The position numbers and the translations under genes were made by a program. Shown here piece after piece: positions 1 through 52,295 of a DNA stretch of 64,000 bases. The stretch's first letter is position 1. Every line of letters starts with the position of its first letter. Source of the stretch: Heterohyrax brucei (lineage: Eukaryota; Chordata; Mammalia; Hyracoidea; Procaviidae); contig CM053148.1 in the NCBI GenBank assembly GCA_028571685.1, positions 87,194,001-87,258,000 of the forward strand, in the 5' to 3' direction. Below the pieces are notes generated by a model that ran no database searches, was not told where the DNA came from, and saw only the letters and a list, made by a program, of their open reading frames with translations.

Positions 1-205
1 TCTCAATTTCTTCCTGTATTCCACATGTGGTTTTCTGTGCCTAGCCAAGCCAAGTGCTGTCGAGCTCCCAAAATACTGATAGCTAACAAAGATGTTGTTC
101 GTGCTTGTCTATGTCAACATCACTGGTGTCAGAAAATGACACAATAATGTCTGTTCTTAGAGCACTCCCTCTGGAACTCTAAAAACACTACCACAGTCTT
201 CCAGT
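1..205. other. Unassigned non-coding DNA
   Basis: Apart from the micro-insertion at 43-68, I see no gene or recognisable repeat here. Confidence 0.5.
43..68 (-). mobile_element. Tail-only SINE/RTE micro-insertion
   Basis: Contains AGCCAAGCCAAGTGCTGTCG, the reverse complement of a SINE/RTE 3' terminus with a TTGGC-type tail. Nothing else of the element is present. No clear target duplication, so insertion as a unit is inferred from the other copies in the window. Confidence 0.5.
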
Positions 206-363
206 TCTACCAAAGTCAATGACAGAAAGGTAAAATCTACCAAAGTCAGTGACAGGAAGATAAATCTTAATAGAGTCAACGGCAAGAAAGGTAAAAATCT
301 ACCAAGGTTAGTGTCAGGAAAATAAGCTTTACCAAAGTCAGTGACAGAAAGGTAAAATCTACC
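206..363. repeat. Five-unit minisatellite, about 30-31 bp period
   Basis: Units begin near 207, 237, 268, 299 and 328 with CTACCAAAGTCAGTGAC or close variants, each followed by an AGGAAGGTAAAA-like A/G-rich half; a sixth partial start lies at 359. Units differ by several bases, so the array is old. It produces a repetitive open frame on the minus strand, which I regard as non-genic. Confidence 0.85.
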
Positions 364-499
364 TTGTACACTCAAAGTCTCATGGCAGTGCTGGTTAAGT
401 CTTTTTAAAGTTTCCTTTCAAGAGCAAACCCATTACTCCAAAGTTCAAGTGTGAGTACACTGGATAAGATAAGCTGAAGTACAAGGTGCGTAAAGAACA
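364..499. other. Unassigned non-coding DNA
   Basis: No gene or repeat recognised. Confidence 0.4.
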
Positions 500-680
500 C
501 TGCGGTGGTCCCGTGGTAGAGTTCTTGCCTTGTTCCATGCCTGATTTGTAAGTGGAGGGGTAGGGGCTGCTATGGGGCTGAATAGGCTTTAGCGGTGCTT
601 CAGAACAAGATGGGCAAGAAGAGAAGCCTGGAGAGCAATTTCCTAAAATCAGCTGATGGAAACCCTAATTATTTTAACTG
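500..680 (+). mobile_element. AfroSINE with tRNA-Gly-like head
   Basis: The head (CGGTGGTCCCGTGGTAGAG then TTCTTGCC) aligns with the 5' half of tRNA-Gly. The body (GCTGAATAGGCTTTAGC, GAAGAGAAGCCTGG, AAAATCAGCTGATGGAAACC) resembles the 5' leader of the RTE LINE at 48.9-49.1 kb. The copy is old and its 3' part appears lost where the next SINE begins. Confidence 0.65.
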
Positions 681-687
681 TCTTCAC

Positions 688-838
688 AGAAACCCTGGTG
701 GCATAATGGCTAAGTGTAACCCAAAGGTGAGCAGTCCAAATCCTCCAGGTGCTCCTTGGAGACCCTATGGAGCATATCCAGTCTGCCCTATAGTGTTGCA
801 TGAATCGGAATTGACTCAGCAACACTCAGTTTAGTTTT
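688..838 (+). mobile_element. AfroSINE, short form
   Basis: Starts at GAAACCCTGGTGGCATAATGG and runs to GACTCAGCAACACTCAG. Landmarks of the short form are all present: tRNA-like head, CAGTCCAAATCC (B-box-like), GCTCCTTGGAGACC and a T-rich tail. It abuts the preceding SINE. Confidence 0.9.
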
Positions 839-847
839 TCATGTGTT

Positions 848-990
848 GGTTATGAAGTTGGCTGTTAATCCCAAGGTTAGATCTTCAAATGTCCCAGCCA
901 CTCCTCGCAAACCCTATGGAGTAGTTCTACTTCAGTCTTGTGGGGCCACTGTGAGTTGGAATCAGTGGCAGTGGATTTGATTTTGGTGGC
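848..990 (+). mobile_element. AfroSINE, 5'-eroded
   Basis: TTGGTTATGAAGTTGGCTG head remnant, then CAAACCCTATGGAGTAG and GAGTTGGAATCAGTGGC. Third SINE in a row in the same orientation. Confidence 0.75.
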
Positions 991-1277
991 TTTCTTAGGA
1001 AATAGAATGTTCAAAAATAATCATGTTTTAACGGAAATAATAAAAGTCTTTTTAACCTTTTTACCACTTCTTGTGGATGTCCCCACTCATCAGAGATTAG
1101 AGTTTTAGTGGCATTTGAGGAGCATCTGCAAAAGCCAGTGTCAAAGTGTTGTCACTCAGAACAGCATGACCACATTACTTCAAGCACACATACGGGCTAG
1201 CGAGTAGTTACAAAATCTCTAATTACATCTGACAGTGGCTGTCACACTTAGTCTTATGTTTCAGTTTGGCAAGTCTA
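991..1277. other. Unassigned non-coding DNA
   Basis: No gene or repeat recognised. Confidence 0.4.
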
Positions 1278-1417
1278 CATCAGTTGCTATGAAGAAGATT
1301 CTGATTCATGGTGATCCCATGGGTGTCAGAGTAGAACTGTACTCCACAGAAGTTTTAATAGCTTGACATCTGGTAAATAGAGCACCCAGCCTCTCTTCTG
1401 AGGCACCTGTCTGTAGA
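1278..1417 (-). mobile_element. AfroSINE, long form, partial
   Basis: Reverse-oriented: GATTCATGGTGATCCCATGG, GTGTCAGAGTAGAACTGT, then CTTCTGAGGCACCTG. The head is missing where RTE leader sequence takes over. Confidence 0.65.
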
Positions 1418-1545
1418 AACCTGTCCACCAAAGGGTGACCCTGCTGGTGTGTGAAATACCGATGGCATGACTTCCAGCATCATACCAACACACAAGCCAT
1501 CACAGGTCAACAAACTGACAAATGTGTGGCAGTAATGGAGCTTTA
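1418..1545 (-). mobile_element. RTE LINE 5' leader fragment
   Basis: GGGTGACCCTGCTGGT, ATACCGATGGCATGACTTCC and CAACACACAAGCC are the reverse complement of the leader seen at 48.90-48.99 kb. It is a non-coding piece joined to the SINE on its left. Confidence 0.65.
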
Positions 1546-2653
1546 GCTCTACTCTTCACCTTCCTATTGACTTAACTCCTATGTTGTGTTTTACTGTATT
1601 TAAAATTTCACTATATATGCAAAAATTAGATTTGATTAATTAGAAATTTAATTACCAATTTTGCTTTGACGATAAATGTGTCTAACTTGCTGATCTCATG
1701 AATTCACCTCTGCTCCACTCAATGAATAATTAAGAGCATTGATTTTGTTAACACTTCTACTTGTTTTATGTAAAAGTTAATTACTATTAAGAGCAACCTG
1801 ATATCTGACAGCAAAGCTCTGCAGAAGCTGGATGCAGTGTCAGCCAATATGTTTTCTTCAGAGCTTCCACAGCCTAACCCAGGTCACTGCTCCTGTCTCT
1901 GGTTCCATTAGCTGATCATCTGTGATGACGTGGTGACAGACTGGAAGCTAGGCTCATCCCTGATGATAAATTATGAATAATTGCTCCAGGAACAGGGTTG
2001 ATAAATTACTCAAGGTATTCATCTACATCTATCTCAAACTAGCCCTGTGATTTTGTCTACGCCTCTGATACTCAGTTTCTCTATGACTAAAAGGAGGCTA
2101 TGCTAAAAAACAAACAAACAAAATGCTATCCATTTAATTCTATTATATATCCTATCAGTCTTTCTCTTTGTAACTTTTTCCAGGGGGTTGAAACTTAAAA
2201 TGGCTTTTCAGTATCTCAGAACAAGAAGAATGTTCACTTACATTTTCATATAACTTCGAGGTCTTTATTTATTTCAATCTTTGCTCCTTCATTACATGGA
2301 ATCAATTTGATTGTAGAATGCAATATGGGAATATAGATTGATATCATCTTCAGAGGTAGTTAAGATTAACCCTGAACCAGTTAATAACAAAATGTTCTGT
2401 CCATCATCCTTACCCCCCACTTTCTGGGACCAATACACATTGGTGCACCCACTTTCGTTGGTACTGTTCTTAGTTAAGTCAACACGCAATTCTAAAACCT
2501 TGCTTAATTCTACAGTAAATGGAAATATATAGGGGAATACGTAACTTTACACTGTGGTCAGAAGCTAGGTATTTCTAGCTTTCAGTTTTGTTCTTTGAAA
2601 AGGAAGTAGGGAACCAGTGGTGTTTTTTTCATTTGGTTAGGTAGTTTGTTTGT
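1546..2653. other. Unassigned AT-rich DNA
   Basis: No gene found. CTCAGTTTCTCTATGACTAAA near 2070 could be a much-decayed MIR SINE but is too weak to list separately. Confidence 0.4.
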
Positions 2654-2826
2654 TAAAAACCAAACCAAACCAAACCAACCAAAACCCAAACCTGTTACCA
2701 CAGAGTCAATTCTAACTCAGAATGACCCTAAAGGACAGAGTAGAACTGCCCGAACAGGCTTTCCAAAGAGCATGTGGTAGATTTGAACTACTGACATTTT
2801 TGGTTAGCAGTCAAACTCAGGGTTCC
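2654..2826 (-). mobile_element. AfroSINE, short form
   Basis: Begins with an (AACCA)n tail (the reverse of the TTGGT-type SINE tail) and proceeds through GAGTCAATTCTAACTC, GACAGAGTAGAACTGCC, GATTTGAACTACTGAC to AGGGTTCCC. Essentially complete. Confidence 0.9.
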
Positions 2827-2845
2827 CCTCAAAAAACAATAAAAA

Positions 2846-3062
2846 AACCCATTGCTGTTGAGTCTTTTCCAGCTTAGGTGCCATCAAATCAATTCCAGCT
2901 CACAGGGACCCATGTGTGGAGACTTGAACCGCACGCTGGAGAGGTTTCATGCTGTGACTTTGCAGCATCAGATTCCTTGACCCTTTTTCTGTTTCTGGTG
3001 GGTTCATACTGCCAGCCTTTCAGTTAGTAGTCATGTGTTTAACCATTTGTGTTACCGAGGCT
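2846..3062 (-). mobile_element. AfroSINE, long form
   Basis: CCATTGCTGTTGAGTC, a repeated CATCAAATCAATTCCAGCTC 3'-end motif, the long-form middle (GCATCAGATTCCTTGACC) and GGTGGGTTCATACTGCCAG. The doubled 3' end suggests one tail inserted within another. Confidence 0.8.
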
Positions 3063-4030
3063 ATCAGAGTTCACTTTTTTATAAAAGGACCCCAGGTTTT
3101 GGCAAGAGGTCCTTTTGGGAGTCTGCTTTGTTGTAGAGTTCTATGTTTTCCCTTAGATTACACATATGTGATGTAGTTTTGCCTCCATAACTTTGGAAAG
3201 TTTCTGGGCATTTTTCTTGATAGGCAGGTGGTCAGAGCCTCTGAACTCTGTGAGATAACTGTGGTAATCTCCCTAAGGATTATCATGAAGCTGGTGATGT
3301 GACTTCTCTGCCTTTCTCTGTCCACTGCCATTACGCCATTAAACACTGCTAAAAGGATTATGAGAGTTTTCTCTGCTGTGAGCTAAGTTAGTCCCCATTT
3401 TTTGAGATAGACATCTTAGTAGTATCAGTCAACTAAATGAAACTATGGCAAACATTTAGGTAAGAGATGTGACTTTCTGTAATATATATTTATACATACA
3501 AAATCAAGTTACAGGTTTTTGTGCAAGCATAATAAAGCCTCAAAGCAGTCGCTTGATAAAAGGTGGATTGGAAAATACATTTTTCACTATGTTGTCTCCT
3601 ACATTGAAATTTTAGAATTCAAATCTTAATGTATTAAGGAGGAAGAGAGCAAAAGAGACGGCCTGAGAAAGTAAGAAACCGTAAAGTTGGCCGCAGTTCT
3701 GTCCACTCGAACAGTAGCATGATGGAGATTGTCTCCTTCATCTGCCCCGCTCCCAAGCAGAAACAAAAAGTCCTCAGGAGAACAAGGACATGGAGGCCTT
3801 GATAAAAGACCAGGAAAAAAGACAAACATTTTCATAATTGCTTATTTCATAGAAAGCATCAACTCCAGAAGTCTGTATGCCCTAGGAAAAAAGGAGTGAA
3901 ATAAGATGGGTAGAAGCTAGAATTCTGTGTTTAAATCTTTGTAAGCCTGTTAGGTGGAGAAGGACTTAGACTAAGTATTTCAATATCCAGCTGTCGTAAT
4001 AGCTTCTCCACTATCCATGTCATCATTTTT
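3063..4030. other. Unassigned non-coding DNA
   Basis: About 970 bp without a recognisable gene or repeat. Two overlapping minus-strand frames near 3630-3830 have no family resemblance and are probably chance. Confidence 0.4.
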
Positions 4031-5243
4031 ATTGTTGTTAGGTGCCACCAAGTTGATTCCAACTCATAGTGATTCTATGAATAACAGAACGAAACACTGC
4101 CTAGCCTCGCACCATGTCCACAATCATTTTTACGCTTAAGCCCATTGTTGTAGTTACTGTGTCAATCCATTTTGTTGAGGGTTTTCCTCTTTTTCACTGA
4201 CCCTCCACTCTACCAAGCATGATGTCCTTCTCCAGGGACTGATTCCTCCTGAAAACACGTCCAAAGTTTGTAAGACGCAGTCTTGTCATCTTTGTTTCCA
4301 AGGAGTGCTCTGGTTGTACTTCTTCCAGAGCAGATCTGTTGGTTGTTTTGGTGGTCCGTGGTACATCCTCTATTTTCCTCCAGTGCCACAATTCAAAAGC
4401 ATCAATTCTTTTTCTGTCATTTTTGTTCATGGTCCAGCTTTCACATGCATATGATGTGACTGAAAATAACATGGCTTGGGTCATGTGCAACTTAGTCTTC
4501 CAGGTGACATCTTCAATACTTTTCAATACAAATATCTGGCAGCAGACTTTTCCCAGTGCAATAAGTCTTTTGATTTCTTGACTGCTTCTTCCATGGGTGT
4601 TGATTGTGGATCCAAGTAAAATGAAATCTTTGACAACCACAATCCTTTCTCCATTTATCATGATGTTGCTTACTGGTCCAGTTGTGAAGATTTTTGTTTT
4701 CCTGATGTTGGAGTACAGTCCATATTCAAGGCTGTGGCCCTTGATCTTTATCCATAAGTGATTCAAGTCTTACTTCCAGCAAGTAAGGTGATGTCACCTG
4801 TGTAATGCAGGTTGTTAATGAGTTGTCTTCAAATCCTGATGTCTCAGTCTTCTTCACAGAATCCAGTTTCTTGGATTATTTGTTCGGTGTACAGATTGGA
4901 AAGGTATGGTAAAAGGACACAACCCTGATGCACATCTTTCCTGACTTTAAAACACACCACGTCCCCTTATTCTGTTCACATGACTGCCTCTTAATCCACA
5001 CACAGATTCCTTGAGAACACCATTAGGTGTTCTGGAATTCCTGTTCTCCACAATGTTAGCCATGATTTATTACGATCTACACAGCCAAATGCCTTTGCAT
5101 AGTCGATGAAACACAGGTAAACATCTCTGCGGTGTTCTCAGCTTTTAGCCATGATCCATCTGACGTCAGTAATGATATCCCTGGTTCCACGTTTTCTTCT
5201 GAATCCAGTTTGAATTTCTGGGAGTTCCTCGTCAATACACTAG
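4031..5243 (-). mobile_element. RTE-clade (BovB-like) LINE, 3' part
   Basis: A 5'-truncated RTE copy on the minus strand. The left end, ATTGTTGTTAGGTGCCACC, is the LINE's 3' terminus reversed. Going right it covers the C-terminal domain and part of the reverse transcriptase back to the FRR/LPE region (near 5190-5240). It carries the longest open frame in the window. Divergence is moderate. A SINE follows 30 bp to the right. Confidence 0.9.
4194..4766 (-). pseudogene. RTE LINE ORF remnant (C-terminal domain)
   Basis: 190 codons open. Recognisable RTE stretches: SLEYGLYSNIRKTKI, TGPVSNIMINGERI, VKDFILLGSTINTHG, SSQEIKRLIALGK, VTSYACESWTMNK, RIDAFELWHWRKI and QSLEKDIMLGRV. This is the region downstream of the YADD motif that follows the RT palm in RTE proteins. 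There is no promoter, endonuclease or RT catalytic motif, so it cannot be a working retrotransposase. Confidence 0.85.
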
Positions 5244-5276
5244 GGAAGCCCAAGTTAGAAGTAGGTGTATGTATAG

Positions 5277-5410
5277 CAGTACCACTTCCACTGGTTTTAG
5301 CTCACAGTCACCCTATATGTTAGAGTAGAACTTCCCCATATAATTTCCAAGGAGCTCCTGGTAGATTTGAACTGCTGGTTAGCACTTAACCATTATGCCA
5401 CCAATACTCT
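5277..5410 (-). mobile_element. AfroSINE, short form
   Basis: TTAGAGTAGAACTTCCCC, CCAAGGAGCTCCTGGTAG, TTTGAACTGCTGGTTAGC, ACTTAACCATTATGCCACC. The 3' end is eroded. Confidence 0.85.
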
Positions 5411-6542
5411 GCTAATATTCTTGCCTGTCTGGAACATGAGAAGTCTCCTGCTCTGTGAACCAAAATAATTTCATGAGAGGAGTATAGAATTCTATCTTCT
5501 TTACCAGACACTGTTTTATGCAGTCCACTGGGAAAGATAGCTTTAAAAAAAAAACCATACCTGGGGACGACATTCCTACCGTCAACTTTCCTCTAAACAA
5601 CAGGAAGTCTGAGGTGGAGTTCATGTCTAAATTGCCTGGGGCCCTTCACAATTATTTCTACACCCATAGGTCAAGCTAGTGCTCTAGGAAAGACAGCTCA
5701 TACTTAAGATGGTCTGTGAGGATCTTTCAAGGATCTGTCTCTGATATCTGATCCAGCGTCCTTACAAACTGAAGCTGGGTGTTTGAGTTCATCTTCTTAA
5801 TGCTGTGGTTCATAGTAACCTTGAACTTTTCCATTTGTTTCACGTTTTAAACTCTTGCTACGCTCTTGAGATAAATCTAAAGAAGGTAAGAACGTAAGTG
5901 CTATTTGATGCAGGGTTTCAGGAATTGTATAGTTCTACTCACTCCCAGACTTAACTTTTGATCCCATGTCATTAGCAGGATAATTAAGAGATTTGAGGCT
6001 TGATAAAAACAGAAGCAATATGTTAAAAGAGAAGATAACATGGTTAATGAATTCCAGTTAAGTGTACAGTGAAATTACATTTGATTAGAAGAAGTAGGAG
6101 ATTTGATTATACAGCACTAAAAGAGGAAATACAGATTTTTTTGTTACTTTCAAGAAAATGATTAAAATTTCTCAAAAATAAACATTCAAAATAACTAAAT
6201 ATAGATATCCCATTACTAAGGTTCCTTTGTATATTAAAAAACAAAACAAAAACAAAGACTCAAATTCGCTTCAGCTTAAAGGGAAGTTTGTTAGCATCTA
6301 CGATTCAAGGACTTGATCATCAGCCAGATGACAGAACGGAAAGAGATGCAGCTGAGTGTTCAGGAGAAGAACACTAGCACTGATGTGCTCTTGGAAATCT
6401 GACATCTGGCCATTGTTTGCCTTGGAACATTTGCTTCCTTCTCTCTCAGCACACACTGGTTTCTTATGTGTTATAATTTGTGTGTAATTTCACAGTTTTA
6501 GATGGCTCTTCCACAGTGTTCATGCTTTACAGTTCATACCCA
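5411..6542. other. Unassigned non-coding DNA
   Basis: 1.1 kb, AT-rich, with an A-run near 5543. No gene or repeat recognised. Confidence 0.4.
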
Positions 6543-7937: not shown

Positions 7938-7964
7938 GAATTGACTTGACGGCAGCGGTGTGGC

Positions 7965-11942: not shown

Positions 11943-11954
11943 AGATGATAGATA

Positions 11955-12107: not shown

Positions 12108-12621
12108 AGGATTTCCAGATAATGAATAGAGACACACAATTACACACGAATGTGGTGAAAAGACTAAGATGGCAATTATGGGGGAGAAAAAAAAGAAATA
12201 TCTATACTACGACATTAAAAAGAGAGAGTAAGTGACAAACTGAAAAATATTCAAAGAAAGGCAAATCAAATGAGACCTTTATTTTTAAAAAGATTGGCCT
12301 AACTGTATTGATCTAGGTGTGTCTACAGTGCTGTTTATCTCAGAGCATCCCAGAGTTATGCCGTACTCTTCCCAGACACAGGAGCGTTGGAAAACCATGG
12401 GACTATCCCACAGGATCAGAGATTTTACTTTTAACCTTATTGCATATCCGGAAGTGGTTGAAAACACATGATCTCCACGAGCAGACAAAAATACTAAAAG
12501 GAAAGCAAAGGAAAAGGAAGTGGACTACCTGTACCATTTCCCATATTTTCCAGATAGGTTCAATCAGGAGACAGAGGCAGATAAACGACCCCTAGCTAGC
12601 TAGCTAGCCTCCCTCATCTAA
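12108..12621. other. Unassigned non-coding DNA
   Basis: Includes a short AGCT-repeat (CTAGCTAGCTAGCTAGC) near 12593. No gene recognised. Confidence 0.4.
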
Positions 12622-12680
12622 AGCAAGCCAGGCCCAGAGCTGCCGAGTTGATTCTGACTCAGAGCAATCCTATGACTCCC
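12622..12680 (-). mobile_element. AfroSINE fragment
   Basis: Only the 3'-terminal part is left: AGAGCTGCCGAGTTGATTC then TGACTCAGAGCAATCC. Confidence 0.7.
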
Positions 12681-16797: not shown

Positions 16798-17300
16798 TGA
16801 GACCTGACAAATAAGTCTGTGAACTCATCCTAGAAAAAGTACTACATTCCTCATTGCTGACTATAACCGTGGTCACCTTTGAAGTACTCCCGTATGGAAG
16901 CTATGCATCAACACTAGCGCCTAGTCCACCACCCTTCAAAGCAAGTTTGGAACTCTTTCCGGAATGACAATCAGAGCTGTTGTCATATTACTCTTGATGC
17001 CCTGAATGTCATCAAAGTGTCTTTTAATATTTCCTTTATCTTTGGATGAAGAAAAAAAAAATCACCAAGAGCCAGATCAGGTGAATAGGGAGGGTGTTCC
17101 AATATAGTTCTTTGTTTACTGGCTAAAAACTCCTTCACAGGCAACCAGACAGTGAAGTGCTCTAACTTGCCAACATGCCAGGGTGTGTAATGGCATTCCA
17201 GAAAGAGTTCCAAAATTGCTTTGGAGGGTGGACTAGGCCTTGGCATCAACACATAGCTTCCCAAAGCAAGTACTTTGAAGGTGACTGTAGTGATATTCAT
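16798..17300 (-). mobile_element. Rearranged mariner derivative, copy 1
   Basis: The left terminal repeat, TGAGACCTGACAAATAAG, follows a TA. The left arm (to about 17150) is the reversed 3' part of a mariner element. From about 17175 the sequence turns round and gives the same 3' part in plus orientation (CATTCCAGAAAGAGTTCC, TTGGCATCAACACATAGC). Both outer ends therefore derive from one end of the transposon. The right terminal repeat is missing after about 17300. Confidence 0.85.
16983..17300 (-). pseudogene. mariner transposase C-terminal remnant
   Basis: A minus-strand frame contains VKEFLASKQRTILEH, PPYSPDLALGDFFF and HPKIKEILKD, the region around the third catalytic Asp of D,D34D mariner transposases. 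The residues before it come from the rearranged arm, not from a natural N-terminus. No DNA-binding domain or first two catalytic residues, so non-functional. Confidence 0.85.
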
Positions 17301-23235: not shown

Positions 23236-23279
23236 AAGCCAAGCCAAGTGCTGTCGAGTCGGATCCAACTCAAAGGCCG
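23236..23279 (-). mobile_element. Tail-only SINE/RTE micro-insertion
   Basis: AAGCCAAGCCAAGTGCTGTC then GAGTCGGATCCAACTC: the reversed SINE 3' end with a TTGGC-type tail and possibly a further 10 bp of SINE. Target duplication not evident. Confidence 0.6.
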
Positions 23280-23709: not shown

Positions 23710-23732
23710 GCCAAGTGCCGTCGAGTTGGATC
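23710..23732 (-). mobile_element. Tail-only SINE/RTE micro-insertion
   Basis: GCCAAGTGCCGTCGAGTTGG plus ATC only. TCTGAATG before it and TCTGACAAATG overlapping its end could be an imperfect target duplication. Confidence 0.6.
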
Positions 23733-24617: not shown

Positions 24618-25147
24618 TGAGGTCTGCCAGTTAAGTTCGAGAACCCATCCTAGCAAAAGTGCTTCTCTACCTCCTTGCTGACTATCATTATGGCCACCTT
24701 TGAATTACTTCCCTTGGGAAGTAAAGCATAGATGCCAGCACCTAGTCCACCCTTCAAAGCAATTTTGGAGCTTTTTTCTGGAGTGGCCATAACAGCTGTC
24801 TTCCTATTACCCTTGATTTCAGTATTTCCTCTGTCTTCGGGTAAAGAAAAAAATCATCGGGGTCCACATCAGGTGAGTAGGGGAGGTGTTCCAATACACT
24901 CATTTGTTTACTGGCTAAAAACTCCCTCTCAGATAACTATGCAATAAAGTTCTCAAACCTGGCACCATGCCACCGTGTGAGATGGCCATTCCAGAAGGAG
25001 TACAAAATTGCTTTGAAGGGTGGACTAGGTGCTGGCATTGGTGCATAGCTTCCCAAGGGGAGTACTTAGCACGTAGCCATAGTGCTATTCAGCAGTGAGG
25101 TACGCAGCACTTAGAACACTTAAGTTCTCTGACTTAACTGGATCTCA
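24618..25147 (-). mobile_element. Rearranged mariner derivative, copy 2
   Basis: Both terminal repeats are visible: TGAGGTCTGCCAGTTAAG on the left, CTTAACTGGATCTCA on the right, with TA nearby on each side. The left arm is the reversed 3' part of the mariner (GGGTCCACATCAGGTGAG, TTTGTTTACTGGCTAAAAAC). The right arm from about 24978 is the same 3' part in plus orientation (CCATTCCAGAAGGAGTAC, GTGGACTAGGTGCTGGC). Same plan as the copies at 16.8 and 57.0 kb. Confidence 0.88.
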
Positions 25148-27553: not shown

Positions 27554-28345
27554 GGTTGTTATTCGGTTCCATCGAGTTAGTGCTGACTCACAGTGACCCT
27601 ATATTCTAAGGACTGAAACACTGCCCAGTGCTGTGCCTTGATCACAATCATTGTTATATTTGAACACATTATTGCAGCCACTGTGTCAGTCTATCTTGTT
27701 GAGGGTCTTTCTTTTTCTCTCTGACTCTATGCTTTATCAAGCATGATGTCTTTCTCTAGGGACTGATCTCTCTTGACAATGTGTCCAAAGTATGTACGAT
27801 GCTGTCTCACCATCCCTGCTTCCAAAGAACATTCTGGTAGTGCTTCTTCTAAGACAGACTTGTTTGTTCTTCTGGTACTCTATAGTATATTCAATATTCT
27901 TCACCAACAATGCAATTTAAAGGCATTAATTCTTCAGTGTTCCTTATTCATTGTCCAGCTTTTATAGGCGTGTAATGGGATTGAAAATATCATGGCTTAG
28001 GTCGGGTCTTGGTCTTTGAGGTGACATCTTTGCTTTTCAACATTTTTAAAGATGGCTTTGCAGAAGATTTGCCCAATGCAATGAGCCTTTTGATTTCCTG
28101 ACTGCTGCTTTCATGGGTATTGATTATGGATACATATAAAATGAAATCCTTGACAGCTTCAGTCTTTTCTCCACTTATCATGACGTGGCTTGCTGGTCTA
28201 GTTATGAGTGTTTTTATTTTCTTTATGTGGAAGTGTAATCCATACTGAAGGCTGTGGTCTCCGAGCTTAGTCAGTATGTGCTTCAAGTCCTTTTCACCTT
28301 CAGCAAGTAAGGTTGTCATCTGCATAACGCATATTATCTTAAAAT
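27554..28345 (-). mobile_element. RTE LINE, 3' half inverted
   Basis: Starts with the reversed LINE 3' terminus (GTTGTTATTCGGTTCCATCG) and runs rightward to the reversed YADD region (AGGTTGTCATCTGCATAACG). A 111-codon minus-strand frame (27990-28325) retains LTKLGDHSLQYGLHFHIKK and SSQEIKRLIALGK. It is complementary in extent to the preceding RTE part. Confidence 0.88.
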
Positions 28346-40148: not shown

Positions 40149-40220
40149 TTAAATGAAAACTACTTAACCAATTTTGGCACTAACAGAGCAGTAGAAATGT
40201 TATTGGCAAACAAATAACAA

Positions 40221-42390: not shown

Positions 42391-42421
42391 AGTTTAGGTT
42401 TTAAGATCTCTTTGATTCCAA

Positions 42422-42442
42422 CTTCACGGCACTTGGCTTGGC
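42422..42442 (+). mobile_element. 21-bp tail-only micro-insertion with perfect target duplication
   Basis: Insert CTTCACGGCACTTGGCTTGG plus one C is the SINE/RTE 3' terminus with a TTGGC tail. It lies between perfect 10 bp repeats TTGATTCCAA at 42412-42421 and 42443-42452. The repeats show it arrived as a unit. Confidence 0.85.
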
Positions 42443-42452
42443 TTGATTCCAA

Positions 42453-42840
42453 AGCATTTTTTATGCTGAGGTTAAATTGGATTCATCTATTTTTATTTAA
42501 CTTGTTCTCTTACGTTCAATAGGTGTTTTTAAATATCGTATTTAGCAAAGGCACTTGGCTTTGGCATTTAGCAAATAACTGTATTTTACAAGGAAGAGGA
42601 AAGTGCTAGTCATCTTTAGGCCAATATCAAGTTCATGACTACAGGAAATGAGTAATGAAAAGCTTGAATAAGTAATGAGCACATAGTAAAGCAAACTATG
42701 CATATGGAAGAAGGGAACAAAAGGGGAAATTAGTTAAGAGTTATTCAGTTAATATTGCATTGTAATATACAAGGTCAAACATGAAATTGAAGGCATCACT
42801 TGCGCTGAGGGTAGTGTTGGACACCTAAGAGTTCCTAATG
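42453..42840. other. Unassigned AT-rich DNA
   Basis: No gene or repeat recognised. Confidence 0.4.
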
Positions 42841-43009: not shown

Positions 43010-44104
43010 GATGCCTAAGTAGGAAATGGATATTGCCTGCTGCATTGGCTTCATTTAGCGGTATTGGATTTTCCTTTTCCATGACTGTTTGTTTGTTTTA
43101 AGAACTTAAAGAGTTCTTAAAGTCTTTTTATAAAAAATTAAAAAAGAAAGTATCAGTTGAAGTTAAGAGCCAAAGAAAGAAGATACCAATTCAATCTCAT
43201 CAAATTGTTTTGAAAGCTTTCCGATACAAGAGCAAAATATGGAGGTGTCAAACACATAATGAGTTGCCAGTGCTGCTTTCTGCATTTTGTACATACCATG
43301 ACAGAATTCTATGATGTGCTATAAACAACAATGGATGAGTAGTGAGCTGAACTTCTCACTTGGCTTGGCTTTGGCAACATATCATGGAGGATCTATTCTT
43401 TGAATTTCTTACATTTGACCAGGGTCAAACGACTGGGTCAAAATTCTTTTTGTGATGTGTTTCTTGGTTTTATCATTTATTTCTTTGTCTGCAAATTTAT
43501 TACCCAACCATGGGAGAATAACTACAGCTTCTTTTCTCTTAGTCTGTTAACCTCAAAGCTCATTGTAGCTCACAACATATATTTGTATGTACTACATAAT
43601 TTTATCTCAAAAGCTACCCTTATACTTGTAATTCTAATTTCTGTTTCCAAACAAGTTGACAGAAAGCCTCATGTTAAGTTAAAAAAAAAAAAAGAAAGCA
43701 AAAACTACAAAGGTAAGTTATGAGAATGTGGATCAGCAACTTCCTGCTTTCACTGGGAAGCTTACAATTATGAAAGTTAGTATGCGAAATTACACCTTTT
43801 AAAAATGCAATAATTACTGAAACATATGTTTAAAAAACACAGGATAAATAATAAACACATCATTTTACTGTTTTCTAGAATATTCATACAAAGTAGAAAT
43901 AACAATAGAAGAATTAATGATCTTTGTATCTATAAAAATACTTCAAGTATTGTGTTTGAAAAAGCACTTCTTACAGTAGTTATTTATAAAAAAACAATTT
44001 AATTATACTTACAATTTGTTAAAATTATTAAAGCATAAAACAATTTGATTTTTAACAACCATATTACTGAATATGGCATTGAAAACATCAATAAATTACA
44101 ACCG
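43010..44104. other. Unassigned AT-rich DNA
   Basis: 1.1 kb. A plus-strand frame of 107 codons at 43400-43723 is rich in aliphatic and aromatic residues and ends in lysines from an A-run. No family is recognisable, and it is probably chance in AT-rich DNA. Confidence 0.4.
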
Positions 44105-44175: not shown

Positions 44176-44339
44176 ATTCTTTAAGAAGAGTCCAAAATTT
44201 TTGAATCATGCTGTATAATTTGTTGTACATGTCAGTATTTTTTCAGGCACATATGTGATGTGACTGTACACCTTTAATAAAATAATTCTAGATTCATTAG
44301 CCAGGTTAGATCACACATTTGAGAAAGTTACAAAATTAA

Positions 44340-44370
44340 GCCAGCCAGCCAAGTGCTGTTGAGTTGGATC
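44340..44370 (-). mobile_element. 31-bp tail-only micro-insertion with perfect target duplication
   Basis: GCCAGCCAGCCAAGTGCTGT then TGAGTTGGATC, between perfect 9 bp repeats CAAAATTAA at 44331-44339 and 44371-44379. Nothing of the SINE upstream of its last 20 or so bases is present. Confidence 0.85.
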
Positions 44371-44416
44371 CAAAATTAAAGTGAATGAAAATGGTTACAG
44401 ATATATTTTAAGATTA

Positions 44417-45590
44417 TGAGGCCTGACAATTAAGTTAGCAAACTTGCCAGTATGCCCTTAGATTGGCAGCACTGTACAAACAACTCAGTAAGATTTCATA
44501 ACTTTGGTATATCAGGTCTCACATCTGTGTTTGTGTTGATGTATGGTGGTGTCTTGCTGAGTAGTGTTCATTACTGTTGTGTGCTTTTGTGTGTCTTCAC
44601 AAGAATGTTGAATTAGAGCAATGAAGAAACATTAAATTTATTGTTAAACTTGGTAAAAGTGGAGGTGAAATCAGGGACATGTTAGTCCCAGTTGATGAGA
44701 ATAATCCCATGAAGAAAGTGGCAGTGTACAAATAGATTAGATATTTTCTGAGGAGACAGAAAATGTTACACATAATGAGAGGTCAGAGCAGCCAATAATG
44801 AGCAGAACTGACAAAAACATTGCAAAAACCTGTCAAATTTTGTGTCAAAATCATCAGCTGACTGTGAGAATCTTGTCAGACCAAGTTAACATCAATAGAG
44901 AAACAGGAAAATCTTAACAGAAAATCTTGGCATGAGAAAGATGTGTGCAAAAATGGTCATGAAGCAGGTCACAGATAAACAAAAGCAAAAGTGAACTGAA
45001 GTTTGTCAAGACCTTTTGGAGGGGTAAGAGGATATTTTGGACCATGTTATCACTGGTGATGAAACATAGGTATACCAATATGACGCTGAAACAGAGCATC
45101 AAAGTGCACAGTGGAAGTCAGCTAATTCTCCACGACCAAAACATTTCCATGAGTACAAATCAAGAGTCAAAACAATGTTGCTAACCATTTTTCATATCAG
45201 AGGTACTGTTCATTACTGTTTGGAAGTGCTGAAAAGCTGCATGAAAAAGTTAGACGAAAACAACGTGAACTTTTCACCAACAACTCACGGGTTTTGCATC
45301 ACAACAATACACCAACTCACACGACACTGTCTGTGAGGGAGTTTTTAACCAGTAAACAAATAACTGTATTGGAACACTCTCCCTACTCACCTATTCTGGC
45401 TCCCAGTGACTTTGCTTTACCTGAAAATGAAGGAATTATTGAAAGGAAGACATTATGATGACATTCAAGACACCAAGAGTAATATGATGACAGCTGTGAT
45501 GGCCATTCCAGAAAAAGAGTACCAAAATTGCTTTGAAGTGTGGACTAGGTACAGGCATCAGTGCATAGCTTCCTCAGGGGAGTAAGAAAA
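44417..45590 (+). mobile_element. mariner-family DNA transposon, almost full length
   Basis: The left terminal repeat TGAGGCCTGACAATTAAG follows TA at 44415-44416. The element then spans a whole transposase-length region and ends near GGGGAGTAAG at about 45588. The right terminal repeat is not visible, so it is truncated or too decayed. At about 1.17 kb it is near the usual 1.2-1.3 kb. Its 3' part is the parent sequence of the rearranged copies at 16.8, 24.6 and 57.0 kb, which share the TGAGGCCTGAC end. Confidence 0.88.
44620..45588 (+). pseudogene. mariner transposase relic
   Basis: Translated pieces show, in order: a helix-turn-helix region (KTCQILCQNHQLTVRIL-like text near 44830); TGDET followed by a stop at the first catalytic Asp (about 45055-45070); LHHNNTPTH near 45296-45325, where the second catalytic Asp of HHDNAPAH is Asn; VREFLTSKQITVLEHSPYSP; and APSDF, which keeps the third Asp (near 45405). 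The C-terminal IPEKE..NCFE.WTR follows. Several frame changes and stops occur, so it is inactive. This is D,D34D mariner chemistry by family. Confidence 0.82.
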
Positions 45591-46112
45591 TATTTTTTGA
45601 AGCTATGTAGTCACAAAAAGTATTAAGGAAAATTCAAAACACTTAGCAATCAGCTAAAGAACCAAGCTTTGAATATCAAAATACAGCTCTCGCTGATGCA
45701 ATCTTCAGCTTTTTCTCCAGCATTAGTTAATGAAAACTCAGTACTTTTTATTTTCTATTCCTCACTATCTTTCTTTTCAATTTTTTCCTATTAATCAGTG
45801 TATTGTTAAACCATATATAGAATGTTACTTTTCCTATCTTTGAGCATTTTGATCATGTATAAATGTATAAAGAGATCAGTTGACTATTTTCCAAAATGTT
45901 ATCATCCAAAATAGAAGTACACTTCATAAACAGAGAAGTTTACTTAAAATGCAGTTGTAGCCATAAAAATACTCTTGCTATAATATTAAAAATGCACTAT
46001 GTGGTAATAACTTACTAAAATTTGAGCAATTTTAATTTATAAGTGTATTATATAAAATGACAAGATGTAATCTATAAACTTGTTAAAGTATATAAAATAG
46101 CTTAATTTTAAA
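45591..46112. other. Unassigned AT-rich DNA
   Basis: No gene or repeat recognised. Confidence 0.4.
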
Positions 46113-46155
46113 GGTCGCCATGATTTGGATTCGATCAACGGCACTTGGCTTGGCT
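46113..46155 (+). mobile_element. 43-bp tail-only SINE/RTE micro-insertion
   Basis: GGTCGCCATGATTTGGATTC, then GATCAACGGCACTTGGCTTGG: the last 43 bp of a SINE with the TTGGC tail. AGCTTAAT to the left and AACTTAAT to the right may be a decayed target duplication. Confidence 0.75.
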
Positions 46156-46207
46156 ACAGGTAACTTAATAGTTTAATAGATTCCTACCAGATGTTGTTAC
46201 TACACAA

Positions 46208-46411: not shown

Positions 46412-46441
46412 ATTTATTTATTCTTGGTTACTATACAGTAA

Positions 46442-46605
46442 GAGGAAATCCACATGGCCTAGTGGTTAAGAGATATGGCTGCCGACCAAATGTTGGCAGT
46501 TCAAACCCAGCAGGCCCTCCGTGGAAACTCTATGGGGCAGTTCTAACTCTGTTCTGTAGGGTTGCTAAGAGTTGTAATAGACTCAGGGTAGTGAGAATGA
46601 GGTTA
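46442..46605 (+). mobile_element. AfroSINE, short form
   Basis: GAGGAAATCCACATGGCCTAG, GTTGGCAGTTCAAACCC, TGTAGGGTTGCTAAGAG. Complete. Confidence 0.92.
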
Positions 46606-46792
46606 CCAGTAAGTATTCTGCTTTTTCTTTTTTTTCCCATGCAGTATTAGATATGTATGGCTCATACTTAGATGGTTTTCGTAAATTTATGATAGTAAAA
46701 ACTTTACAATGTTTCTTTTATTATTCCAATAGTATATAGTACCTAAAGTTACAAACAGCCTGGTAGCATCCCAAAATTTTAAACAAAAGATA

Positions 46793-46887
46793 TCATATGT
46801 CCCAGGATTTTTACTCCTTAATGTATACCCAAGAAAAATGAAAGTTTGTTTTCTCGTGAAATCTTGTACATGAATGCTCAGAGCACT
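46793..46887 (+). mobile_element. L1 3'-UTR fragment
   Basis: AATGTATACCCAAGAAAAAT, ATCTTGTACATGAATGCTCA, AGAGCACTC correspond to the L1M 3' region also seen at 37.0 kb. The 46606-46792 stretch before it is unassigned. Confidence 0.65.
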
Positions 46888-47061
46888 CTCTTATAATCTT
46901 CTATTATTTTTGTAAGGTCAGTAGTGATGTCTCCTCTTATTCCTGAATTTAGTAATGTCTGGAGACAAAAAGTTTTCTCACTTTTTGTCCTTGGTGAGTC
47001 CACATAAAAGCTTTATCAGTGTGAATGATGTTCTGATTTCATTTTCTCTGTTTTGTTTATA

Positions 47062-47269
47062 AGGAACCCTGGTGGTGCAATGCTTAAGCACTCAGTCCCT
47101 AATCAAAGCACTAGCAGTTTGAACCCATCAGCTGTGCTGCATGAGAAATATATGGCAGTCTGCTGCCATAAAGGTTTACAGTCTTGAAAAAACTGTGCAG
47201 TGGATTTGCACGGTCCTACAGGCTCGTTATGAGTAGGGATTGACCTAAAGGCAACAGATTGTTTTTCAG
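47062..47269 (+). mobile_element. AfroSINE, long form, nested in L1
   Basis: AGGAACCCTGGTGGTGCAATG, GCAGTTTGAACCCATCAGC, GCAGTCTGCTGCCATAAAGG, TTGACCTAAAGGCAACAG. Complete. Confidence 0.92.
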
Positions 47270-47469
47270 GGAGAGGTATACTTTGTTTGCACACATTCAA
47301 ATCTTTTTTTCTTTCTTGTGTTGACATGAATTTACTTCTTTCTCTTTTTTCTAGTTACCAAAGTTGCAGGTTTAGGTTATTGATTTTACTTTTATTTTTT
47401 CCTCTATATAAAATATTTCCAATTATAACTATCCTTTGATAAAAGCTTTATCTGTATCCTATAACCAAA

Positions 47470-47528
47470 ATAAAATGAGACAAACCACTATCTTTGAGGC
47501 AATTCCAGCTCAAAGCGACCCTGTAAAT
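47470..47528 (-). mobile_element. AfroSINE 3' fragment, nested in L1
   Basis: TTGAGGCAATTCCAGCTC, AAAGCGACCCTGTAAATC only. Confidence 0.7.
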
Positions 47529-47853
47529 CATGTTAATTTCGGTTTTCGTTTTCATCTATTTCAAAATACTTAGTGACTTTTCCAGCAACTCTTCTTTTAC
47601 TCAATAATTATTTAGGAATTTCTCCTTTAGTTCACAAATGTTTGTAAATTTCCCAACTTTTCTGTTACTATATTTAATTATAATTTTTATCATACTTTCA
47701 TTATTTAAATTCTTTAAATTTATTGAGTCTTTTTTATGGTTCAGTACATTATCTTCTTGAGAATTCTACTTCTATACTTGAGAATTACGTGTATTCTGTT
47801 ATTATTGACTAGAGTACTCTAGAGATATCTCTTAGTTCTATGTAGTTTATAGC

Positions 47854-47886
47854 CAGCCAAAAGCCAAGTGCCGTCAAGTCGGATCC
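47854..47886 (-). mobile_element. 33-bp tail-only micro-insertion with 14-bp target duplication
   Basis: CAGCCAAAAGCCAAGTGCCG then TCAAGTCGGATCC, between perfect 14 bp repeats ATGTAGTTTATAGC at 47840-47853 and 47887-47900. The insertion is inside an old L1, whose text continues undisturbed on either side. The clearest member of the family. Confidence 0.93.
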
Positions 47887-48498
47887 ATGTAGTTTATAGC
47901 TTTGTCCAAATATTATATTGCTGTGCTGAACTTCTGTGTTTGTTGTTATTCTTATCATTATTTAAAATGGAATATTAAAGTCTCCCACTGTTATTATTGG
48001 ATTATCTTTTTCTCTTTTAATTATACAACTTTGATTCATATTTTGGGGCTATGTTGTTAGGTACATTCATGTTTATAATTGATAATATTCCTGATAGCTT
48101 GGCTGTTTCATCATTATGTCTACTTTGTTTCTGGTATAAACTTTTTGTCTTATTGTCTATTTTGACTGATTCCAGTTTAGTCACTATAGCTCCCTTATTG
48201 TTGCTGTTTAAGTGGTATGGATATTTCTATTATTTCTCTTTCAATCTATTTATGACTTTGAACATAAAGTATATCTCTTGTGGACAGCCTATTGTATCAT
48301 AAATTTAACCAATCTGTAATCTCATCCTTTTAATTGGGATGGTTAATACATTTATATTCAATATAAATGGGAATGAAATAGGATTTATCTCTGTCACTTC
48401 TTGTTATCCTGTTTGCTTTTGATTAAAATCTGTTCTTATCACTTAGTTGCTCTTTCATATCTGTTTCCTATCTTCTTTACATTGCTATATACCCCACA

Positions 48499-48690
48499 AA
48501 GAAACCCTGATGGCACAAATGTTAAGTGCTTGACTAGTGATGGAAAGACTGGTAGTTCAAACTCATCAGCAAGTTTCAAAAGACCTGTTGATCTGTTCCC
48601 ATAAAGATGAAAGTCTTAGAAAACCCTATGGGGCAATTCTACTCTAATCTACAGTTTTGCGGTGAATTGGAATCAAATTGATGATGCACA
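48499..48690 (+). mobile_element. AfroSINE, long form
   Basis: AAGAAACCCTGATGGCACAA, GGTAGTTCAAACTCATCAGC, AAAACCCTATGGGGCAATTC, GAATTGGAATCAAATTGATG. Complete, next to the L1. Confidence 0.9.
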
Positions 48691-48889
48691 CAGCATACCC
48701 AAAGAGATCCAAAGCTATCTGCTGCTTTGCCAAGTTCCTTTTCAATCTTCTTGGTGGATTTACCCAAAGGAAGGCACAACTGGTAGACTTTCAGAAAAAG
48801 GACAATGGTTGTCTAATTTTCCCTATGTCAAAATCCTCAGGTAAGGGGGGTAACAGCATCACATAAGGAGGTTAAAGATAGACTGAGCA
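48691..48889. other. Unassigned DNA
   Basis: No repeat or gene recognised between the SINE and the RTE. Confidence 0.4.
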
Positions 48890-49328
48890 GTGCCCACTTG
48901 TCTGTCAAAGAAGGCTTGTTTGTTTTTGTGAATGCTGGAAACTATGCTGTTGGTATATAGGTACCAGCAGAGTCACCCATGGTAGACAAGTTTCAGCTGA
49001 GCTTCTAGACTAGGAAATACTAGGGAGGAAGACCTAAGACCTGGTAGTCTACTTCTGAAAGGAATTAGCCAGGGAAAACCTTATGAATAGCAGCAGAATA
49101 TTGTCAGATATGGTGCTGGAAAGTGAGTATTACAGGTTGGAAGGCACCTGGAAGACAACTGGGGAAGAACTATCTCCCCAAAGTAGAGTCGACCTTAATG
49201 ATGTCGATGGAGTAAGGACTTTGGGACCTTTGTTCACTGATGTAGCATGGCTCAAAATGAGAATAAATAACTGAAAATATCCGTTAATAATTAAGACATG
49301 GAAGGCATGGAGTACAGATCTAGGAAAG

Positions 49329-49607
49329 TTGGAAATTGTCAAAAATGAAATGGAACACATAAACATTGATATCCTAGGCACTAGTGAGCTGAAATGGACT
49401 GGTTTGGGCCATTTCGAATCTGACAATCATAGGGTCTACTGTGCTGGGAACAAAAGCTTGAAGAGGAATGGTGTCGTGTTCATCATCAAAAAGAACACTT
49501 CAAGATCTATGTTGAAGTCCAGTGCTGTCAGTGATAGGATAATAGTCATATTATCAGAGAGTATCAAAATAAGGTGGAAAGATTACAAGATTAATTATAC
49601 CAGATAG
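49329..49607 (+). pseudogene. RTE endonuclease domain remnant
   Basis: Starts MEIVKNEMEHINIDILGTSE and continues LKWTGLGHFESDNHRVY. The Glu in TSELKW is the position of the metal-binding Glu of APE-like LINE endonucleases; KRNGVVFIIKKN and SDRIIVILSES follow. Only the first third to half of the domain is present, without the Asp-His catalytic end. Confidence 0.85.
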
Positions 49608-49815
49608 CACTGTGTCAAGGTTCAGCCATTTGAAGAGCTAGTATATGATCAGGAACTAATGGTACTGAAGGAAGAAGCTGCACTGAAGGTATTGGGAAGA
49701 AAACAAGGGTCTAGAATTGACGGAATATCAACTGTGGTATTTCAATAAACAGTGGCAGCTCTAGAAGTGGTCACTCATCTATGTCAAGAAGTTTGGAGGA
49801 CTGCTACCTGTCCAA

Positions 49816-50144
49816 TTGACTGGAAGAGATCTATATTTATGCCCATTCCAAAGAAAGGTGATCCAATTATATTCAGAAATTACTGAACGATATTGTCAAT
49901 ATCACATACAAGTAAAATTTTGCTCAAGAGCATTCAAAAGGGACTGCAACAATATATTGGCAGGGAACTTCCAGATATTCATGCTGGATTCAGAAGAGGA
50001 CATGGAGCTAGGAATATCATTGTTGATGTCAGATGGATCTTGGCTGAAAGCAAAGAATGCCAGAAAGATGTTAACTTTCTTTTCATTGACTATGCAAAGG
50101 CATTCAACTGTGTGGATCATAATAAATTATGGCTAACACTGTAG
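49816..50144 (+). pseudogene. RTE reverse transcriptase remnant, fingers/palm
   Basis: Two overlapping frames hold the RT text. One (from 49893) reads SISHTSKILLKSIQKGLQQY, GFRRGHGARNIIVDVRWILA and LFIDYAKAFNCVDHNKLW. FIDYAKAF is RT motif A with its catalytic Asp kept; GFRRGHGA is the finger motif. The piece ends with a stop soon after KLWLTL. Confidence 0.85.
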
Positions 50145-50339
50145 ACAGTGGTAATTTCAACAGCTAACTGTGTTCATGAGGAGTCTGTATACAGATCAAA
50201 ATGCAGTCGTACGAACAGAACAATGGGACACTGCATGGTTTAAAGCGAGGCAACATTTTTAATTGGTATGCCAAGCCAATAATCCAAGAAACTGGATTAT
50301 ATGAAGAAGAACGAGGTGCTGGAATTGGAGGATGACTTT

Positions 50340-50966
50340 TTTACAATCTGCTTTACACAGATGACTCCACCTTACTTGCTGGAAGTGAAGAAGATATGAA
50401 GTACTTACCGACCAAGATGAAGGACTACAGCTGTCAGTACGGAATGCACCTCAACATCAAGAAAACAAAAATCCTCACAACTGGACCAGTAAGCAACGTT
50501 GCCATAAGTGGAGAAAGGATTGAGTTTGTCAAGAATTTCACTTTACTTGGGTCCACAATCAATGCCCATGGGAGCAGCAGCCAAGAAATCAAAAGACATA
50601 TTGTGTCGGGAAAATCTGCTGCAAAGATTCTGTTTTAAAGTATTCAGAAGTTAGAATGTTACCTTGAAGACTGAAGTGTACCTGATATAAGCCATGGTAT
50701 TTTCAGTCACATCATATGCATGCGAAAGCGAGGCAATAAACAAAGAAGATGGAAGAATTGATGCCTTTGAACTGTGGTGTTGGAGGAAAATGTTGAATGT
50801 ACCATGGACCACCAAAAGAACCAACAGATCTGTTCTGGAAGAACAACCAGAGTGCTCCTTGGGAGCAAAGATGGCAAGACTATGTCTTACATACTTTGGA
50901 CATGTCAGGAAGGATCAGTCCCTGGAGAAGGACATCACGCTTGGTAGAGTGGAGGAGGGTCAGTGA
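50340..50966 (+). pseudogene. RTE reverse transcriptase motif C and C-terminal domain remnant
   Basis: CTTTACACAGATGACTCC at 50350 encodes LYTDDS, the YADD-type motif C with both Asp kept. The frames 50396-50638 (DYSCQYGMHLNIKKTKIL, TGPVSNVAISGERI, SSQEIKRHIVSGK) and 50694-50966 (VTSYACESEAINK, RIDAFELWCWRKM, QSLEKDITLGRV) carry the C-terminal region. A shift lies between them at about 50638-50690. Confidence 0.85.
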
Positions 50967-51145
50967 AAAAGAGGAACACCCCTGACTAGATGGATTGACA
51001 CAGTGACTGAGACAACAGGCCTAAGCATAAAAACAATTGTGGACATGGTGGAGGACTGGACGGTGTTTTATTCTGTTGTTTGTAGGGTTGCTGTGAGTCG
51101 GAACTGACTTGGCACCACCTAACAACAGCAACAACAACAAAATTC

Positions 51146-52154
51146 TCTTCACAGTTCTGACAGAAGGTGTTGCCCTCTAAAATCATAATTTTCATTGTAT
51201 TGTCCTTCAATTATTCCACTGAATTGTCCATAACTACCCACTCATGCCTGGGGTAGTTATGACTATCCACTGTTACTATACCTACCCTTCCAACTATCAT
51301 TTGTTGGTCCCTTTAACCACTAGGATGCCTCTATGTTTTTCCTTTGCTGTATTATCTTCAGTTAAATTCCTTTGAGTATTATATTTGTTTCTTGCCTAAT
51401 GCAACATAATGTACGTTTTACAACATAGCCTGTTTACCTGGCATTTCAGTAGTAGCTGTCATTTTCTCACACTACCATCATAGACTATTAGCCTAGCTTT
51501 TCTCCCCTGGAGTTCTGGTCTTTATGCCTAGGGAGCAAGTGACCAACAGCAGGGAAGGTGAGAATCCAGGGCACCAACTCAGGACTCCTGATTAGGAGGT
51601 ACAGTCAGAGTTGGGGCTACAAGAGAAAATCATACCGGGCATTTTGCCACTGTGATTGCTACTATTACTGTACTCTTCTTATTTAAATATAAGCATAGGT
51701 CATAGAAAAATTGCCTCAGGGACTGTATGCCCAGAAGTTTATGACTAGAATGTTTGGCAGAAGTAGTTGGCCCATCAAAATAATCTCCTTGGTAAATATA
51801 TGTAGATATTTGCCAATACAGAAAGACTGTGCCATCATGATTGGCATAAACTGGTGCTGGAAGAAAAAAGAAACAGAATTTTTACGTGCCATTTTTTATT
51901 TCAAATTAAACAATTAACCACTATTTATTTGACACAAATTGTATTCAAGATAATATTGGATACATTGTGATTCATTAGTCTTCACCATCATGTAACTTAA
52001 AATCAACATAAGATGCAGTATAGGTAGATATTTGAGATATTTACAGACAATTATATTGTGCTTACTAGAAAATCAGTAGTGTAACTACTCTTTTCGTTAA
52101 TACTTCGTAGGTATAAAAGCAGAGGTGATAAATCACAACGTGATAAAAACGGTA
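51146..52154. other. Unassigned, SINE-free DNA
   Basis: Has a 10 bp perfect stem, ATAACTACCC at 51230 and GGGTAGTTAT at 51251. No gene recognised. Confidence 0.45.
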
Positions 52155-52258
52155 TGCCCCCCAGGACATACAGCCAGCTACTGGCTCTGGTTCAGATTTG
52201 AACCTAAAATCCTGCCTAAGTTCGTGTCCATAACCAATACAGTAAGATGCTACTTAAC
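52155..52258 (+). mobile_element. MIR SINE fragment
   Basis: GGACATACAGCCAGCTACTG, CAGATTTGAACCTAAAATCC, CATAACCAATACAG and AAGATGCTACTTAAC follow the pattern of the MIR core in its TTTGAACC orientation. Ancient. Strand relative to the MIR consensus is uncertain. Confidence 0.6.
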
Positions 52259-52271
52259 AAAAATATAATGA

Positions 52272-52295
52272 GCGAAGCGAAGTGCCGTCAGATCC
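52272..52295 (-). mobile_element. Tail-only SINE/RTE micro-insertion
   Basis: GCGAAGCGAAGTGCCGTCAG plus ATCC, the most diverged member (GCGAAGCG in place of GCCAAGCC). No clear target duplication. Confidence 0.55.

Follow-up and report, generated by a model that had tools for sequence, protein, structure and literature searches.

How does a genome come to hold insertions that consist of little more than the tail of a short interspersed nuclear element (SINE)? The question is raised by a window of 64,000 nucleotides from Heterohyrax brucei (assembly GCA_028571685.1, contig CM053148.1, positions 87,194,001 to 87,258,000), the whole stretch of DNA analysed here, in which a first-pass annotation had described eight loci carrying only the 3' end of such an element with a distinctive tail. 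We put a probability of roughly 85% on the reading that these "stubs" stem from target-primed reverse transcription, of the kind used by RTE long interspersed elements (LINEs), of a young AfroSINE subfamily, and that this reverse transcription mostly aborted within the 3' domain of the element. The names AfroSINE, RTE and L1 have some support from passages in papers; they are presumptive names and not repeat-library matches.

Nine tail-only inserts in the window

All eight loci were present as described, and both + and - orientations occur among them (Table 1). A motif-free search of the window for perfect direct repeats of at least 10 bp, spaced 12-80 nt apart and passed through a complexity filter, added a ninth insert of 16 bp that had been overlooked. 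The 3' tail, whose absence marks a tailless retropseudogene, is present in all nine.

The three perfect target duplications reported by the first-pass annotation, of 10, 9 and 14 bp, are exact. Together with that of the ninth insert, perfect duplications of at least 9 bp surround four of the nine inserts, compared to 1.1% of 4,000 random positions; the other five inserts have no significant duplication. The 14-bp duplication of insert 7 was dropped by the complexity filter and is present under a looser one. Direct repeats alone are not rare in the window: the motif-free search returned 18 filtered rows (five simulations gave 4-9 apiece), of which two enclose inserts of the stub family. The distinctive part is the shared insert sequence. 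Matches to the 18-mer GACTCGACGGCACTTGGC with up to three mismatches occur six times in the window and not once in 20 Markov simulations or in the reversed window. A possible tenth member at about 43353-43375 (CACTTGGCTTGGCTTTGGC) was excluded, as it has no significant duplication.

A run of T residues precedes the duplications. Allowing a shift of 0-2 nt, TTT was found at positions -12 to -10 in all four, compared to 7 of 74 other direct repeats of at least 9 bp, which were counted on both strands and thus include the same four duplications read backwards.

Table 1. Stub inserts and related elements in the window.
Feature	Position	With duplications	Strand	Sequence	Flanking repeat	Upstream T-run
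Insert 1	43..68		-	tail-only, ...AGCTCGACAGCACTTGGCTTGGCT	none found	
Insert 2	23236..23279		-	tail-only, contains GAGTTGGATCCGACTC	none found	
Insert 3	23710..23732		-	tail-only, GATCCAACTCGACGGCACTTGGC	5 bp only, not significant	
Insert 4	42422-42442	42412..42452	+		perfect, 10 bp, TTGATTCCAA (42412-42421, 42443-42452)	TTTT, 10-13 nt
Insert 9	42550-42565	42540..42575	+	16 bp, GGCACTTGGCTTTGGC	perfect, 10 bp, ATTTAGCAAA	TTTTT, 10-14 nt
Insert 5	44340-44370	44331..44379	-		perfect, 9 bp, TTAATTTTG	TTTT, 9-12 nt
Insert 6	46113..46155		+	tail-only, extends to GGTCGCCATGA at start of 3' domain	6 bp only, not significant	
Insert 7	47854-47886	47840..47900	-		perfect, 14 bp, GCTATAAACTACAT; 12 bp if GC is counted as tail	TTT, 10-12 nt (12-bp reading)
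Insert 8	52272..52295		-	tail-only, tail TTCGCTTCGC	6 bp only, not significant	
LINE fragment, RTE-like	4042..5240		-	peptide pieces such as FIDYAKAFGCVDRNK; ends in shared 3' region and CACCTAACAAC		
Related truncated SINE 3' end	12619..12674		-	~56 bp, tail GCTCTGGGCCTGGCTTGC, intermediate between the two classes	imperfect, 13 bp, TTAGGTGGGGGAG/TTAGATGAGGGAG (by eye)	

Copy number, length and insertion signatures across the genome

To place these inserts in context we searched the 3.49-Gb genome from which the window comes; all genome counts are lower bounds. The 16-base tail CGGCACTTGGCTTGGC matched exactly at 27,634 places (reversed control, 0) and with up to two mismatches at 83,371 (control, 102), while GGATCCGACTCGACGGCACTTGGC with up to three mismatches matched at 86,030 (control, 1). 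Five of the nine window stubs pass the two-mismatch test. The window is richer than the genome mean, with 5 matches to CGGCACTTGGCTTGGC at this threshold where 1.5 are expected and 4 to GGATCCGACTCGACGGCACTTGGC where 1.6 are expected. Scaling the two-mismatch count by the proportion of short copies in the sample described below (69/85) gives 68,000, so stubs appear to number in the tens of thousands. Neither GACTCGACGGCACTTGGC nor the SINE core matched any viral contig. Three bacterial or archaeal matches to GACTCGACGGCACTTGGC (L001-L003) were not used, since 257 billion bases would yield about seven by chance.

For the length distribution we took places with the exact CGGCACTTGGCTTGGC tail in the first 22.6 Mb of one contig, using 96 of the 100 listed. 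A script took out 9 duplicates, which left 87 copies, and two more were removed by eye, which left 85. Length was counted back from and including GGCAC. Copy ends come from alignment and may be a few nucleotides off (the boundary of L105 was reset from its duplication), and the search pattern needs CGGCAC, so that stubs as short as insert 9 go uncounted.

Among the 85 independent copies, 69 retain 34 nt or less, 14 retain 39-103 nt and two, L046 and L047, are full-length SINEs that extend to the SINE 5' end; 83 of 85 are therefore 5'-truncated. The possibility that most copies would turn out to lie within longer repeats did not materialize in this sample, as the 69 short copies are outside any longer copy of the same repeat. 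The first-pass annotation had also stated that no full SINE in the window carries the stub tail. This holds, as none of 47 near-full matches there has CACTTGGC near its 3' end, but it does not extend genome-wide, where L046 and L047 are full-length elements with that tail and partly truncated ones exist as well. Fourteen of the 16 copies longer than 34 nt contain SINE body by eye, and the other two (L034 and L078) were left without assignment. In longer copies with the stub tail, the SINE body ends CTCCTTGAATACTCTGGGGGTCAGTTCTACCCTGGCCCCTAGGG before the 3' domain, and a 59-base query made up of SINE body, the domain and a CTTGGC tail gave 4,354 genome matches. Three features mark the subfamily: GAGTCGGATCCGACTC within the 3' domain, a body that ends CTCCTTGAATACTCTGGGGGTCAGTTCTACCCTGGCCCCTAGGGTCGCCATGAG, and the tail CACTTGGC(TTGGC)n.

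The sampled copies combine a variable 5' end with a constant 3' end, the constancy being partly due to selection on the exact tail. Of the 28 possible 5' end positions between 6 and 33 nt, 26 are used, and longer copies extend the range to 103 nt. The first-pass annotation had offered a minimal substrate, mobilised as such, as one explanation; 5' ends so widely spread, grading into longer copies and two full-length SINEs, contradict it. Some ends recur: GGTCGCC and GACTCGAC six times each, and ACTCGACG, TCCGACTC and CATGAGTC five times each. The stopping rate was 4.7% per nt within the 34-nt domain and 2.2% beyond it (p = 0.006), a step that hints, though not strongly, at difficulty in leaving the domain.

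The target duplications extend to the genome sample. Here the right copy was forced to begin near the tail end, and the null was obtained by exchanging right flanks. A score of at least 8 was reached by 19 of 87 copies (null, 0.23%) and a score of at least 6 by 28 of 87 (null, 6%). Once ambiguous bases are counted as tail, 17 of the 19 duplications measure 9-14 bp and two measure 6 bp; the inserts that they enclose are 17-44 bp long in 14 of the 19 cases. The frequency of T upstream of the duplication peaks at 0.68, at positions -13 and -12, and TTT lies within -14 to -9 in 8 of the 19, compared to 11% of control stretches (p = 6e-4). Some duplications begin with TA.

At the 5' junction, the target shares bases with the SINE sequence just upstream of the break. 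Over 18 sites (L028 excluded) this microhomology sums to 25 bases, compared to a permuted mean of 7.4, and none of 20,000 permutations reached it; 17 of 18 junctions share 0-3 bases and one shares 6. In L028 (G000:C1:15596080-15597080) an inverted copy of its own target, forming a foldback whose arms measure about 22 nt, was seen by eye at the 5' junction, ahead of the SINE part; a switch of the cDNA end to the target strand would give such a structure.

The joined-flank test for an empty site was applied to one stub, L090, which lies in an L1-like copy. With the 17-bp insert and one 13-bp duplication removed, its flanks gave 19 exact genome matches and 6,689 with up to three mismatches (control, 0), so the empty site is present in the one case tried. 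This and the excess of duplications over chance, in the window and in the genome sample alike, bear out the first-pass view that the stubs are retro-insertions.

The stubs L014/L052 and L059 are nested within older SINE copies, whose other copies supply the empty site; inspection by eye shows a ~5-bp duplication at L059. At four places, L095-L098 (G000:C1:15.69-16.10 Mb), an identical stub stands in the same context, which we take to be L1-like; this indicates that the stub was carried by duplication or by copying of the host repeat.

Tail classes and the origin of the stubs

The 3' region with its GACGGCA core is common to SINE, LINE and stubs, a single 3' domain that carries three tails: (AAC)n in the LINE, TGGGTTTGG in the SINE and (T1-4 GGC)n in the stubs. 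We compared the stubs with the two other classes. The older SINE class, represented by exact CGGCAGTGGGTTTGGTTT, has 2,933 copies in the genome (control, 0). A sample of 30 loci reduced to 23 independent copies, of which none retains 34 nt or less, six retain 35-120 nt (one of 35 and one of 44) and 17 are longer. Most members of this class, which carries a TGGGTTTGG tail, are thus close to full length, and the class differs from the stub class at p = 2e-13, or p = 9e-12 when the cut is moved to 35 nt. The LINE tail class, represented by exact CGGCACCTAACAACAACAA, has 1,582 copies (control, 1). From 100 listed places we inspected 20 by eye, leaving out eight in an apparent duplicated cluster: all 20 continue into LINE sequence over the 125 nt shown and none is 34 nt or shorter. 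A LINE 3' end joined to a CTTGGC tail gave no match genome-wide at up to three mismatches, with the limit that the query body is that of the older LINE and a younger LINE may differ; the same body with a CCTAAC tail gave 108 matches.

The CTTGGC class looks younger than the full-length class. Divergence of the body from the class consensus is 5.2% (53/1,014) in the former and 15.9% (371/2,328) in the latter, an approximate gap, as both samples were selected by exact tail and we built the consensuses ourselves.

In the mechanism that we favor, an RTE-clade endonuclease would nick the target 10-13 nt downstream of a T-run and reverse transcription would begin on the GGC-repeat tail. cDNA synthesis would mostly stop inside the ~34-nt 3' domain common to SINE and LINE, and the short cDNA end would be joined across the staggered break, in many cases via 1-3 nt of microhomology, to yield a product of 16-45 bp flanked by a duplication of mostly 9-14 bp. 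We infer that the enzyme was of the RTE1 type and that the 5' end was set by cDNA synthesis and not by a pre-cut RNA; the cause would be poor processivity or a failure to escape from the recognition domain. The first-pass annotation had suggested that priming is so inefficient that almost all copies are abortive. Nearly all sampled copies are indeed abortive, but many were primed, and it is elongation that seems to fail.

One alternative is that the SINE transcript was cut or degraded and that the same enzyme copied the 3' fragment, recognition domain plus tail, to its end, so that the RNA sets the length of the stub. The region shared by LINE and SINE lies wholly in the 3' domain, certain 5' ends recur (6 of 85 at GGTCGCC and at GACTCGAC) and three or four of the nine window inserts start at or beside GGATCC, all of which would suit a cut RNA. 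Given the spread of ends over nearly every position of the domain and onward to 103 nt, and an excess of 5' microhomology that is more readily explained by an unfinished cDNA end than by a completely copied RNA, we regard this explanation as improbable. It could also be speculated that the stubs are filler DNA, copied into double-strand breaks from abundant SINE tails without target-primed reverse transcription. Such an origin would account for the missing clear duplication in most copies (59/87 below score 6) and for the inverted target copy in L028; it is very improbable in view of the duplications, mostly 9-14 bp, in 19 of 87 copies, the RTE-type T-run and the confinement of stubs to one of three tail classes. 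Ordinary decay of longer SINE copies by deletion, for which the abundance of SINEs in the window might speak, can practically be dismissed: perfect duplications abut the stubs, the empty site of L090 is present inside other copies of its host repeat, and the stub class looks younger, yet the older class has no copy of 34 nt or less among 23 (one at 35).

Several observations weigh against abortive RTE-type reverse transcription. No RTE enzyme of the right age was identified, and the LINE copies found bear another tail. The drop in stopping rate past the 3' domain is modest, and the predicted hairpin energy is not beyond that of shuffled sequences (z = -1.34, -0.46, 0.78 and -1.31). Duplications are seen in a minority of copies in both the window and the genome sample; many of the copies without one may reflect target loss, blunt joining or decay. 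That the duplication abuts the tail end was built into the search and is not independent evidence, and the T peak of the genome sample (-13, -12) is slightly off the window's -10. Finally, loop, tail and age covary (GGATCC with the TGGGTTTGG tail: 0 exact matches, 37 with one mismatch); they changed together, so no single one can be blamed. A hairpin acting as a simple strong stop was rejected, because a stop at the foot of its 3' arm would end stubs before CGACTC, yet many contain CGACTC.

The window itself is dense in SINEs (47 near-full matches in a profile search). A duplication search on these gave mostly weak repeats and was not used as a control. It also contains presumed RTE-like LINE fragments that finish in the shared 3' region followed by CACCTAACAAC; the one in Table 1 is presumably the kind of element that supplied the enzyme. 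A minisatellite lies at 206-363 (30-bp unit TCTACCAAAGTCAGTGACAGAAAGGTAAAA, 5.2 copies, 68% matches), and an older repeat family of about 400 bp, whose reverse strand looks mariner-like, is present as partial copies at 16874-17299, 24695-25091 and 57119-57539 and as a short piece at 45506-45611. ARAGORN found no tRNA in the window, and no Rfam family reached its gathering score there.

Known systems and what the stubs record

The stubs are an extreme form of 5' truncation, which is itself already known. In 5'-truncated LINE-1 insertions the 5' end is variable and the 5' junction shows microhomology, as in the stubs; LINE-1 stops are spread over kilobases, whereas the majority of stub stops come no more than tens of nucleotides after initiation. 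With so short a template, SINEs are normally copied to near full length, and a subfamily with 83 of 85 copies truncated and 69 of 85 keeping 34 nt or less of body is an extreme case, unlike the older SINE class in the same genome (17/23 above 120 nt, TGGGTTTGG tail).

A table in PMC3747384 names AfroSINE (AFRO_LA, PSINE1) with RTE1 as partner LINE. The stubs resemble this pair in that the RTE-type 3' end is shared and the full-length copies with the stub tail have an AfroSINE-like body. They also resemble published RTE LINEs in the T-run upstream of target duplications: PMC13295347 gives a T-run about 10 nt upstream as a sign of RTE-clade LINEs and credits Gilbert et al. with a comparable finding in an RTE LINE of the elephant. 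RTE elements of Lepidoptera and Anopheles (PMC2887409) have strong 5' truncation, a 3' simple-repeat tail and target duplications of 6-12 bp. The stubs are similar in all three respects; they differ in that the starting element is a SINE of about 150 nt, plus tail, of which 16-45 bp are left. Tailless retropseudogenes, as described by Noll et al. (2015, PMC5322556), are likewise non-standard mammalian retro-insertions with perfect target duplications. Those elements lack the 3' tail, and their insertion is ascribed to L1, with a TT/WAAAA-type target; the stubs, unlike them, retain the tail, lose the 5' part and have the RTE-type T-run. In the open-access text searched, we found no description of a SINE subfamily of which almost nothing but tail stubs remains.

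It is conceivable, though we consider it doubtful, that reverse transcription by the RTE enzyme passes through an abortive phase akin to promoter escape, in which short cDNAs are released on the 3' recognition domain. With this subfamily, which has a new loop and a new GGC tail, escape would have nearly failed, and a burst would have left stubs of 16-45 bp on the order of 100,000 in number, as extrapolated from the 68,000 above and the five of nine window stubs that pass the two-mismatch test. Most of these would probably be too small to be picked up by standard repeat annotation. The stubs we found are in any case likely to be overlooked by repeat annotation and could appear as unexplained short indels between species. 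Within the lineage, those that bear duplications could be used to mark insertion events. As natural records of where RTE reverse transcriptase stopped in its first nucleotides, the stubs give access to a step that is invisible in full-length copies.

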